Virus record (IMG/VR): IMGVR_UViG_3300048088_000201
Span: 1-29,655 of that record
Length of the DNA: 29,655 nucleotides
DNA from: a virus
Strand: one strand, 5' to 3'
The position numbers were made by a program, and so were the translations under genes. The notes beneath the pieces are model-generated. The model was not told where the DNA came from. It made no database searches and worked only from the letters and a program-made list of their open reading frames with translations. Below are positions 3,100 to 14,177 of this stretch, piece after piece (the first letter of the stretch is position 1; every line of letters starts with the position of its first letter).

Positions 3100-4491
3100 T
3101 CAGTCAGAAATGGCGACGGCGCCGGGCTTGATCGCGTTCTGCTTGATGCGAAGCTTCTCGTCATCCCACGTTGTTTCGGGGCTGATGTAGCCGCGGCGTT
3201 TCGCTTCGTTGAACAGCGATTCATCGGAGAACGTGCCGTCAACATTCATGTCGCGCAGCAGGTCTATCGAAGCCTCTGCAAGCGTCGCAACGCCGAAATC
3301 CTTGAAGATCTGGATGTTGCCGCCCCGCTTCTCGCCAATGAACATCGCCGTCAGTTGCAGTGCGGCGTCGATCGCATCCTCCACGTCTTCGACGAGGCGT
3401 TGCAGCGCGCACATGCCGGCTTCGTTTTCCGCTACCGTCTGAGCGACGGTCGTCTTGCCCGGCTTAATGACGAGCAGTTCTGCGCCGACTTGGCGCATGC
3501 GGTCTTCGAGATCGAGCAGCGAGAGACGACCGGCTTCGATTGCTGCGCCGGAGTGCTCGACGTACCTCAGATCAGAATGCTCGTGATCGGCATTGACCAG
3601 CGAGCCAGCGCCCACTGTCACCGTCGTTTCGCCGAGGTTCTTGCCGAACAGGATCGGCACGCGAGCGACGTGCAGGATCGTCTGCTGATCGCTCTTGCTC
3701 TGCCAGTGCTCGACGTTCATGTGCGCGAGCTCAAGCAATGGCGGCACAGCCGTCATGAATCCAGTGCGCTTACCGTATGCAGGCACGAACGGGATTACAG
3801 GCAGGGCGGTAGTCCCCTGATCGTGCAGAATCCATTCCTTTTTGCCGTTCGCGTCGACCTTCTCAGGCTCGCGATAGGTCGCCCATCCGCCAGGCACCAG
3901 CACGCGCACCTGCTCAATCTCTTTCTCGCCGAACTCGCCGTCATCCTCGATGACCTGTTCAAGCAACCGCAGTTGCGTGAACACTTCGGCGCCGTTGATG
4001 CGCTGTGATCGCCAGCCGAGAATGTTGCCGGCGCGCACTTGCACCCAATAGGGGCGAATGCCGGCGACCTTTTCGTCGGCCGCCGTTGCGCCTTTAACTG
4101 TCGGCGGGCTATCAACCAAAATGCCCTCAATGCCGCGGGCCAGCGCCGCCTCGGTCAGACTAGCCGCGAACGCATGCAGGTTGCGCCCCTGCATATCGAT
4201 GTCCGTGTCGCACCATTCCCTGATGCGCGCCGGCACATCGTCGGTAAGCGTGACGGGCTTGCTGAACGGCTTGCCTGCCAGCACTTCGACGGTGCGAGGA
4301 AACGCCGGGAACAACGTTGCAGTCGCCAAGCGAGCGTCGTATGCCTCTTTCGTCTCGCCGGGCCACTGCGGTAGATATGTCTTGCCCGCCTTGCGCATGG
4401 CAGGCGTGCCGCCAAGCAGTGCGTCGACGATCGGCCAGTTCTCGGCCATCGCTTCCACTGCGGCGGACGGGTCGCGCACTGTTGTCGTCAT
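3100..4491 (-). CDS. Phage portal protein, DUF4055 type
   Basis: This 463-residue protein is placed between the large terminase and the scaffold, as portals are. The N-terminal part (MRKAGKTYLPQWPGETKEAYDARLATATLFPAFPRTVE, here split by eye around residues 30-70) and the 'LVDSPP' and 'RPYWVQVRAGNILGWR' segments are characteristic of DUF4055 phage proteins, which act as portals. It would form the dodecameric DNA channel at one head vertex and dock the terminase. It starts 14 bases after the terminase stop with no evident Shine-Dalgarno sequence (CATCACACATG), which suggests coupling. A 97-base gap with a weak GCGGC/GCCGC hairpin separates it from the scaffold gene. Confidence 0.88.
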   Translation of the reverse strand: MTTTVRDPSAAVEAMAENWPIVDALLGGTPAMRKAGKTYLPQWPGETKEAYDARLATATLFPAFPRTVEVLAGKPFSKPVTLTDDVPARIREWCDTDIDMQGRNLHAFAASLTEAALARGIEGILVDSPPTVKGATAADEKVAGIRPYWVQVRAGNILGWRSQRINGAEVFTQLRLLEQVIEDDGEFGEKEIEQVRVLVPGGWATYREPEKVDANGKKEWILHDQGTTALPVIPFVPAYGKRTGFMTAVPPLLELAHMNVEHWQSKSDQQTILHVARVPILFGKNLGETTVTVGAGSLVNADHEHSDLRYVEHSGAAIEAGRLSLLDLEDRMRQVGAELLVIKPGKTTVAQTVAENEAGMCALQRLVEDVEDAIDAALQLTAMFIGEKRGGNIQIFKDFGVATLAEASIDLLRDMNVDGTFSDESLFNEAKRRGYISPETTWDDEKLRIKQNAIKPGAVAISD

Positions 4492-10252: not shown

Positions 10253-10259
10253 GCTGTGT

Positions 10260-11474: not shown

Positions 11475-11490
11475 CAACTGGGGAGAAACC

Positions 11491-11659: not shown

Positions 11660-12433
11660 ATGAGCGTTAAAGTCATGACGATGGTTTGGGAACGCTACCC
11701 GGATGGCGGCGGCGACATGTTATTGGCGCTCGCGCTCGCGGATCACTCACACGACGACGGAACGCATATCTACCCTTCCGTTGACTCGCTCGCCAAGAAG
11801 ACGCGCCAGTCCGTTCGGACGGTGCAGTACCAGCTTGGCCGCATGAAAGAAGCAGGCTGGCTCATCGCCACGAATGCTGGCGACGGCGGCCGCGGACGTC
11901 ACGCCGAGTACCGTATTTCGCCCGACTGGCTAAACGGTGCAGAAATTGCGCGAGCCAAAAAGGGTGCAAGTGACGACGCGAAAGGGTGCAATCCACGACA
12001 AGAAAGGGTGCAATCTGACGCAAGAAAGGGTGCAACAGCTATTGCACCCGCTAATAACCAAGAAGAATCGTCATTAGAACCGTCAGGGAACCGTAGCGCT
12101 TCGCGCCGTCGCGCCAAGCGCGCCGATACTCCCCTGTCAGCTTGGTTAGATGCGTGCAAGGAAAGCGGCGAGCGTCCGATTCCTGAAGACGACACGATCT
12201 TTGAATACGCCGAAAAGGTGAAACTTCCTATCGACTTCATTCGATACGCATGGCTGGAGTTCAAGCGCCGCCACATTGAAGACGACTCTAAGAAGTACAA
12301 GGACTGGCGGGCCGCGTTCCGCAATGCTGTGCGGGAGAACTGGTACAAGCTCTGGTTTCAGGCTGATGACGGCAACTGGCTTCTGACTACGCGCGGCAAG
12401 CAAGTCAAACAAGAACACTCGGAGGGAGCATGA
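11660..12433 (+). CDS. Replication initiator with winged helix (lambda O analogue)
   Basis: The protein has 257 residues. Residues 36-70 (HIYPSVDSLAKKTRQSVRTV...KEAGWL) are a winged helix-turn-helix of the kind found in phage replication initiators. The middle (about 90-150) is low-complexity and encoded by the iteron DNA. The C-terminal part (LSAWLDACKESGERPIPEDD...WLEFKRRHIEDDSKKYKDWRAAFRNAVRENWYKLW) resembles the domain by which phage initiators or DnaT-like proteins contact the helicase. The gene is followed by a small ORF and a DnaB-type helicase gene, overlapping by ATGA, so the set forms a replication module. I infer that its N-terminal domain binds the iterons inside its own gene. Confidence 0.85.
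   Translation: MSVKVMTMVWERYPDGGGDMLLALALADHSHDDGTHIYPSVDSLAKKTRQSVRTVQYQLGRMKEAGWLIATNAGDGGRGRHAEYRISPDWLNGAEIARAKKGASDDAKGCNPRQERVQSDARKGATAIAPANNQEESSLEPSGNRSASRRRAKRADTPLSAWLDACKESGERPIPEDDTIFEYAEKVKLPIDFIRYAWLEFKRRHIEDDSKKYKDWRAAFRNAVRENWYKLWFQADDGNWLLTTRGKQVKQEHSEGA
11959..12049 (+). repeat. Iteron array, probable origin of replication
   Basis: Four exact copies of AAAGGGTGCAA lie at 11959-11969, 11981-11991, 12003-12013 and 12025-12035, each 22 bp apart, about two helical turns. An inverted TTGCACCC follows at 12042-12049. An AT-rich stretch (about 12050-12090, CTAATAACCAAGAAGAATC) comes next, as in lambdoid origins inside gene O. Because 22 is not a multiple of three, the repeats are read in different frames, so selection is on DNA rather than protein. 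Confidence 0.88.
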
Positions 12434-12810
12434 CTGACGAACAGATTTTGGACGAATTCGAAGGCCGCGCCATGAAGCTTCGGGATTTCATGGGTTATCC
12501 GACCACTGACGGCGTGCGTGTCATCGAAGGTGTCCGAGCGATTCTCGCCGCCTCGATCGCGAGCGACAAGCAAGATACTTTCGTGCCTTGCAAATGCGAG
12601 TCAGATGATGGCCGGATTTGCGGGCGTTGCCACGCTTGGGATGACGTAACGGCAGCACAGCGCCGAGCGATCGACCGCCCACTGACTGACGAACAGATCG
12701 AGCGCATTGGCCGTATGTGGGCGACTAAGCGGTTCAACTGCGACGATATTCGCGCGGATCTCGCCGCGACTCGGGACAAATCCGCAGAGAGCGGGAAGGA
12801 GCAAAAATGA
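12430..12810 (+). CDS. Hypothetical protein with cysteine cluster (126 aa)
   Basis: It starts MTDEQILDEFEGRAMKLRDF with a 4-base ATGA overlap with the initiator gene. Near residues 54-68 a CKCESDDGRICGRCHAW segment carries four cysteines and a histidine that could bind zinc. A 'TDEQI' phrase appears at both ends of the protein. It sits between initiator and helicase genes, where lambda-like phages place helicase loaders, but it has no AAA+ ATPase motif, so a loader role is speculative. Confidence 0.7.
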   Translation: MTDEQILDEFEGRAMKLRDFMGYPTTDGVRVIEGVRAILAASIASDKQDTFVPCKCESDDGRICGRCHAWDDVTAAQRRAIDRPLTDEQIERIGRMWATKRFNCDDIRADLAATRDKSAESGKEQK

Positions 12811-14177
12811 GCGCCAACGACCTTCAGCGGGCCGTCCCGCAAGCCGCAGAAGCCGAACAAAGTGTGCTCGGCGCCCTTCTGCTCGACAACGACGCCATCG
12901 ACCGTATCGGCGATCTGCGCGCTGAGCACTTCTTCCGCGGCGACCATCGCGCGATCTTCGTTGAGATCGTCTCGCTGATCAGCAACGGCGCTGGCGCTGA
13001 CGTGATGACCGTGTTTGAGCGCCTGCAAGCCAAAGGCCGCGCGCAAGACGTCGGCGGGCTGCCGTATCTCAACGACCTGGCGCACAACACGCCGAGCGCA
13101 TCGAACATCACGCGCTATGCCGACATCGTGCGGGACCGTGCGCAGAAGCGCGGCGTGCTTGCTATGACGCATGAGATTCAGGAGATGATCGGAACGACGC
13201 CAGAGAGCGCAGCAGTGATCATTGACCGCGCGTCGTCGAAGCTCGAGAAGCTTGGCGAGTCTGTCGTGAAGTCGGAGCCGGTGAAGGCTGCGCAAGCGCT
13301 CGTCGACTACATCACGCACATGGAGAAGCAGGCGGAAGGCTTGATTAAGCCCGTCTCCACCGGCCTGACGGATCTCGACCGCAAGCTTGGCGGCGGCTTC
13401 TATGCGGGCGATCTGGTCGTCGTTGCCGCCCGCCCCTCGATGGGGAAAACCGCGTTTTCGCTGACGGTTTCGGCGAACGTTGCGGAGACTAAGCCGGTTC
13501 TCTTTCTGTCTATGGAGATGACGAACCTCCAGCTCAATCAGCGACTTGTGTCGTCGCAGGGCCGGATCTCTATGGCGACACTGCGCAACCCGGCCGGCAT
13601 GAGCAACGACGAATGGTCGCGCGTGACTGTGGCGACACAACGCATTGCCAACCTCGAACTGTATCTCGACGATCAACCGAGCCTGACCCTGCTCGAAGTG
13701 CGTAACAAGGCGCGAACTGCGAAACGTAAATATGGCTTATCGATGCTTGTTGTCGACTATTTGGGATTGATGGCGACTGGCGACGAGGAGCGGCGCGATC
13801 TGCAAATCGGTGCGATCACGAAGGGGTTGAAGAACCTGGCGAAAGAACTTGGCATTCCCGTCGTCCTGCTCTCGCAGCTCTCGCGCAACGTTGAGCAGCG
13901 CCCGAACAAGCGGCCGTTATCGAGCGATCTGAAGGACTCCGGCGACATCGAGGCCGACGCCGACACGATCCTGTTCCTGTACCGCGATGAGGTCTACAAC
14001 CCGGATTCGATGGACAAGGGCATCTGCGAGGTGATCTGCACGAAGCAGCGCCAAGGCGAAACCGGGATTGTCGGACTTTCGTTCATCGGCGAACAGACGC
14101 GATTTGAGGACTTGGTGCACGGCCAGTCGTTCGGATCGAGAGGCGAATCAAGGCCAAAAAATAGGGGATTCGACTGA
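12807..14177 (+). CDS. dnaB: Replicative DNA helicase, DnaB family
   Basis: At 456 residues it has the normal DnaB length. The N-terminal domain (AVPQAAEAEQSVLGALLLDN) is standard. The RecA-like motor has Walker A ARPSMGKT (208-215), Walker B MLVVDYLGLM (about 313-322), the 'QLSRNVEQRPNKRPLSSDLKDSG' segment and 'IEADADTILFLYRDEVY'. It unwinds DNA ahead of the phage fork as a hexamer. A phage-coded DnaB removes the need to capture the host helicase. It overlaps the upstream gene by ATGA and is followed by a 206-base control region. No motif is missing. Confidence 0.96.
   Translation: MSANDLQRAVPQAAEAEQSVLGALLLDNDAIDRIGDLRAEHFFRGDHRAIFVEIVSLISNGAGADVMTVFERLQAKGRAQDVGGLPYLNDLAHNTPSASNITRYADIVRDRAQKRGVLAMTHEIQEMIGTTPESAAVIIDRASSKLEKLGESVVKSEPVKAAQALVDYITHMEKQAEGLIKPVSTGLTDLDRKLGGGFYAGDLVVVAARPSMGKTAFSLTVSANVAETKPVLFLSMEMTNLQLNQRLVSSQGRISMATLRNPAGMSNDEWSRVTVATQRIANLELYLDDQPSLTLLEVRNKARTAKRKYGLSMLVVDYLGLMATGDEERRDLQIGAITKGLKNLAKELGIPVVLLSQLSRNVEQRPNKRPLSSDLKDSGDIEADADTILFLYRDEVYNPDSMDKGICEVICTKQRQGETGIVGLSFIGEQTRFEDLVHGQSFGSRGESRPKNRGFD

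Follow-up and report, generated by a model that had tools for sequence, protein, structure and literature searches.

Architecture of the replication locus

We analysed the viral record IMGVR_UViG_3300048088_000201 over its whole length, and this stretch of 29,655 bp is referred to as the window. An initiator gene is found upstream of the gene for a DnaB-type replicative helicase (Table 1). The match of the initiator to PF13730 (HTH_36) scores 38.8 bits against a cut-off of 25, and its PHROG matches are replication initiation proteins (phrog_1032, 1.8e-18; phrog_678, 3.4e-17). Both confirm the winged-helix initiator that was originally predicted around the repeats. The helicase is presumed to be the cargo loaded at the origin. 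A 126-residue ORF at positions 12430 to 12810, between initiator and dnaB, has no Pfam or PHROG match; it is possibly a loader or an accessory factor.

The AlphaFold2 model of the initiator was calculated from an alignment in which rows from certain phage records were left out. It comprises a winged helix (residues 1–92), a disordered linker of low confidence (about 95–157) and a helical C-terminal domain (158–254), with pLDDT values of about 95 at residues 1–70, about 50 in the linker and about 80 in most of the C-terminal domain. The linker is the part encoded by the repeat array and the AACC tract, and since it is modelled as disordered, origin repeats can live in its codons. A search by sequence for relatives of solved structure gave none that was useful. 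Fold comparison, which essentially covers the winged helix, is not specific and finds many winged helices including CRP/CAP and TFIIE-alpha (Z about 8).

Table 1. Features of the initiator locus, numbered from the first position of the window.
Feature	Position	Strand	Remark
Initiator gene, 257 aa	11660..12433	+	PF13730 (HTH_36), E 8e-10; PHROG replication initiation
Recognition-helix codons, residues 52–65	11813..11854	+	helix modelled with high confidence
Residue 57 (Tyr) codon, specificity position	11828–11830	+	maximum mutual information with iteron class
Degenerate upstream iteron AAACGGTGCAG	11932..11942	+	27 bp 5' of iteron 1
Iteron 1 AAAGGGTGCAA	11959..11969	+	
Iteron 2 AAAGGGTGCAA	11981..11991	+	
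Iteron 3 AAAGGGTGCAA	12003..12013	+	
Iteron 4 AAAGGGTGCAA	12025..12035	+	
Terminal inverted iteron, + strand reads TTGCACCCGCT	12042..12052	-	dyad with iteron 4
Phased AACC element, proposed opening site	12056..12096	+	four copies, directly after the cap
AACC copy AACCAAGA	12056	+	
AACC copy AATCGTCA	12066	+	step 10 bp
AACC copy AACCGTCA	12078	+	step 12 bp
AACC copy AACCGTAG	12089	+	step 11 bp
DnaB-type replicative helicase	12807..14177	+	PF03796, 2.6e-87; phrog_19, 5e-110

The four exact repeats at 22-bp steps and the inverted copy behind them are present as had been claimed. No further exact copy of AAAGGGTGCAA occurs anywhere in the 29,655-bp record. A record-wide search for two exact copies 19–25 bp apart matches at the array alone, and the reversed-pattern control gives 0 matches over the same length. 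No DnaA or IHF consensus site is found near the proposed origin, the one DnaA-like match lying far off at 10255, and a plasmid search for similar sequence found none.

The flank of the array had been described as AT-rich. It is so only mildly, with 50% AT at positions 12050–12105 (43% in the initiator gene, 41% in the window), although its duplex stability is at the 97th percentile for weakness; the tract is in fact made of phased AACC copies. Within the initiator gene, duplex stability is lowest over 50 bp near 12196, outside the proposed opening site. The cumulative GC skew, suggested as a check of the origin, has its minimum at 11478 near the array; this minimum coincides with the divergence of transcription, that is with gene orientation, and is therefore not independent evidence.

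The array is conserved at the DNA level

Relatives were gathered from bacterial genomes and viral contigs by protein similarity of the HTH domain alone, in order to avoid circularity. At least three GGTGCA iterons at 20–24 bp are observed in 56 of the 67 non-redundant genes, with four copies in 50. The exact 22-bp step of the window is not kept among them: steps of 22 bp (99), 21 bp (62) and 23 bp (1) are all used. In 55 of the 56 relatives with an array, the inverted cap starts 12–14 nt beyond the point where the last iteron core begins. As a null model, synonymous codons were shuffled within each gene with protein and codon usage kept. Against this null the 67 relatives hold 327 GGTGCA words where 52.6±6 are expected, and 151 TGCACC words where 28±4 are expected. 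Across relatives the iterons are distributed over reading frames 0, 1 and 2 as 125, 55 and 38. The use of all three frames and the excess over codon shuffles show that selection acts on the DNA, and the earlier claim that the repeats are kept as DNA signals holds. The iterons thus lie inside the coding sequence of their own initiator and are conserved there as DNA. This arrangement recurs in numerous unrelated phages.

One to three GGTGCA-N5-TGCACC palindromes are found 5' of the array in most relatives, for instance at 3921 and 4002 of relative L011 and at 13555 and 13591 of L013. Unlike the array, they are nearly always in frame 0 and encode the peptide GAxxAP. In the window such a palindrome is present in degenerate form alone, at 11932–11950, and the upstream copy at 11932 is taken as a remnant of it. 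These palindromes may serve as dimer sites or in handcuffing.

The triple-array pattern is also present in 14 of 200 whole genomes sampled from one bacterial family; ten loci of this sample were examined, of which nine belong to this initiator gene and one is a short tandem repeat. Pattern matches in L021, L035, L040, L048, L075, L096, L110, L117, L122 and L605 were discarded as simple repeats or chance. Three further loci are of separate interest. Over the HTH domain, the initiator of L172, a record titled Bacillus subtilis SK7B5 contig00035, shares 60% identity with the query; elsewhere in the scan this initiator type is confined to proteobacterial genomes, and L172 is probably a contaminant contig. 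In L125, near-perfect 22-bp GGGTGCAAAACTCGTAACGCCC repeats at 11718–11790 are covered merely by a 20-residue ORF and represent a different kind of array. In L099, three GGTGCAA words with 22-bp spacing run across the start of a repressor-like gene, not an initiator gene, and might be an operator with a similar iteron.

Residue 57 of the recognition helix predicts the iteron class

Five relatives have no GGTGCA. They keep the whole layout, including inverted copies and the AACC tract, with iterons that read GGTGACA or GGTGTCA. Their recognition helices have VQRQ, VQRL or VIRL, compared with mostly VQYQ in GGTGCA genes. Residue 57, located in the first turns of the modelled recognition helix, was singled out after inspection of these first five switched genes. 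The survey was then extended with further lineages, and arrays were called de novo in 200 genes under 80% identity. In this set Arg57 occurs in 0 of 106 genes of the GGTGCA class, in 18 of 18 of the GGTGAC class and in 8 of 8 of the GGTGTC class. All 26 switched genes thus carry it, and residue 57 predicts the iteron class perfectly. Its mutual information with iteron class is 0.716 bits, the maximum possible. The columns next in rank, 94 and 97, are not independent of the iteron DNA because upstream copies are encoded there; position 13 follows at 0.34. Loci fetched after the rule had been noticed agree in 21 of 21 cases, with two query alignments chosen after Arg57 members had been seen.

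On a tree built without the helix columns, supported branches require at least four independent iteron switches; the best tree has nine. In each of the four supported pairs the change goes with Arg57; four supported independent switches are too few for the sign test (p = 0.125) to become significant. From the S-x-x-T-V-x-[Y/R] alignment we take residue 57 to correspond to the base-contacting Arg185 of CRP/CAP, and residues 52 and 53 presumably correspond to its Arg180 and Glu181; both serve as leads and not as tests. Arg52-Ser53 is found in several GGTGT types, and residues 52–53 may tune the next iteron base.

Quite different iterons, GGTGTAGG, GGTATGCC and CCTGTGCC, are observed in the enterobacterial-type relatives L479, L482, L462, L493, L503 and L502, in which residue 53 is Ser or Ala and residue 57 is Lys, Thr or Ala. 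The sequences suggest that the recognition code may reach beyond the three tested iteron classes. No description of a GGTGNCA recognition code was found in the open-licence literature, and the code appears to be previously undescribed.

A phased AACC element follows the iterons

Among the AACC copies of the window, the third (12078) is the only perfect AACC(A/G)TCA. Under the codon-shuffle null, 148 AACCRTCA words are observed in the 67 relatives where 16±3.6 are expected. Their reverse complement is at chance (3 seen, 2.5 expected), so the element is confined to one strand. In genes with an array every AACCRTCA copy lies 21–58 bp past the start of the last iteron core, successive copies are 10 or 11 bp apart in 68 of 81 cases, and all three frames are used. 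The looser word AACC forms phased runs of at least three in 60 of 129 genes, where about 6 are expected, and runs of at least two in 85 of 124 genes with an array, which is about two thirds and not all. Regular strand-specific repeats are thus found beside the iterons.

The tract accompanies each of the three GGTG iteron classes and is present in 14 of the 21 clusters of C-terminal sequences. On inspection by eye, Shigella phage SfV, Pseudomonas phage phi2 and Arthrobacter phage Cote have comparable tracts behind iterons of other sequence, and Bifidobacterium phage Bbif-1, Gordonia phage Sting and Erwinia phage Pavtok have looser versions. Repeats of the type GGTGCAA, GGGTGCAA or AACCATCA in phage origins were not found described in the open-licence literature, and the AACC element likewise appears to be new.

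The repeats lie at the joint of an exchangeable domain

In 142 gene pairs the N-termini are at least 75% identical while the C-termini have no detectable similarity. The reverse is also found: in L044 a Pseudomonas-type N-terminus is followed by a C-terminus that shares about 79% identity with the one in L002 and L033. Similar N-termini with unlike C-termini, and the reverse, place the proposed origin at the joint of an exchangeable domain, and this joint falls at the origin repeats. Judged from these sequences, the origin seems to act as a recombination hinge.

Comparison with known replication origins

Iterons within initiator genes are already known from lambda, P22 and phage L. The lambda record (NC_001416, L509) annotates O-binding ori iterons inside gene O. 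The two layouts have in common about four mid-gene iterons roughly two helical turns apart, an opening tract to their right, which in the window is a proposed one, and a helicase-loading gene downstream. The repeats themselves are different. Lambda iterons are 18-bp dyads at 20, 24 and 23 bp (L509, 635–719), while the window has asymmetric GGTGCA iterons with a separate inverted cap; the lambda tract is plainly A-rich and has no AACC repeat, while that of the window is half AT and phased. The original prediction of a lambda-O-style layout in the initiator gene with a different repeat stands, and the iterons differ also in being asymmetric. The system would work like lambda ori but is not lambda ori.

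Gene 18 of P22 and gene 18 of phage L encode distantly related initiators with different iterons within the genes, and each protein appears to bind the iterons in its own coding region (PMC8022706); the repeats are of other sequence, and the available part of that source describes neither a recognition code nor a second element. Pseudomonas phage MD8 has repeats within an O-like gene and a lambda-like mechanism (PMC8508860); repeat sequence, spacing, specificity and AACC element are not described in the available part of the paper. Pseudomonas phage phi2, with replication proteins close to those of MD8, contains TGCACCC repeats together with AACC repeats.

Parallels for the second element are found outside phages. 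At ori2 of Vibrio cholerae, six ATCA repeats at regular intervals are kept single-stranded by RctB (PMC11711613), and at oriV of RK2, TrfA does so with four 13-mers (PMC4081077). Both systems share with the window the layout of iterons and adjacent strand-specific repeats, and the commoner form of AACC(A/G)TCA contains ATCA. Their initiators belong to unrelated families, however, and their origins lie outside the initiator gene. By analogy, the AACC tract could be held as single strand like these repeats.

Proposed mechanism and alternative explanations

From its sequence, the region 11932–12096 is very probably a phage origin set in the disordered-linker codons of its own initiator, with iteron binding, AACC opening and DnaB loading. 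We infer that replication would start at the array in the following way. The winged-helix domain would bind the GGTGCA iterons, with residue 57 of the recognition helix reading the bases after GGTG. With a spacing of 21–22 bp, about two helical turns, the initiators would all sit on the same side of the helix, and the inverted copy at the end would cap the array. The initiator–iteron complex may then strain or capture the adjacent AACC tract, one repeat per turn, which would open or stay held as single strand, and the phage DnaB would be loaded there.

The array could instead be mainly an autoregulatory operator, at which the initiator blocks transcription through the replication operon while replication starts elsewhere. 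Read literally, the covariation would mean that the array is bound by the product of its own gene, and intragenic binding could block the downstream dnaB. A repressor, however, has no need of the second phased element to which the array is linked, the sites lie about 300 bp into the gene and not at a promoter, and the same placement is an origin in lambda. We consider this unlikely as the main function, although autoregulation could exist alongside origin function. It is more improbable still that the array is a site for another protein, acting in partition, packaging or recombination, and is merely located in the initiator gene. Iteron arrays do serve as centromeres in some other replicons. 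The array sequence, however, changes in perfect step with a residue in the recognition helix of the gene that carries it, and this holds also in lineages with different C-terminal domains. Hardly credible is a protein-level explanation, in which KGA/KGC/RVQ and EPS/TI/NH repeats contact a partner of the initiator and the likeness of the DNA is a by-product. The repeats do lie in coding sequence and the upstream palindromes are in frame 0 in nearly all relatives. Against this stand the use of frames 0, 1 and 2 by both motifs, a codon-shuffle null that misses by tens of standard deviations, and a linker modelled as disordered. We reject this explanation for the array on frames and codon shuffles; the rejection does not cover the upstream palindromes.

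Within the origin reading, the role of the AACC element is less settled. We tentatively propose, at somewhat under an even chance, that AACC(A/G)TCA is a new and widespread class of origin-opening signal, phased and strand-specific. Its reader would be a factor that these systems share, either the winged helix through another mode of binding or a host replication protein. The tract would be retained in phages from several bacterial phyla, with the iteron specificity set by residue 57 and the C-terminal domain swapped beside it, so that these origins would evolve as three exchangeable modules. It is also possible that the element is not an opening site: a host factor may bind it as double strand, or it may bend the DNA and so help to wrap the origin. 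The period of 10–11 bp sets every copy on one helical face, and this one-turn period makes a double-strand reader or bend a serious rival. The AT content is modest, and the element is shared by varied C-terminal domains and iteron specificities, so that its reader looks common to all. The place next to the iterons and the strict strand, on the other hand, parallel the single-strand repeats of TrfA (PMC4081077) and RctB (PMC11711613).

Implications

Across a large family of temperate-phage initiators, the gene itself shows the probable origin, whose sequence follows from a single amino acid. If the rule holds, origins and replication incompatibility groups could be called from sequence for many uncharacterised phages, and the code predicts that origin specificity would be switched by a single residue. 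That the AACC element is kept while the DNA-reading residue and the C-terminal domain change suggests a common, apparently undescribed step in strand opening or helicase loading.
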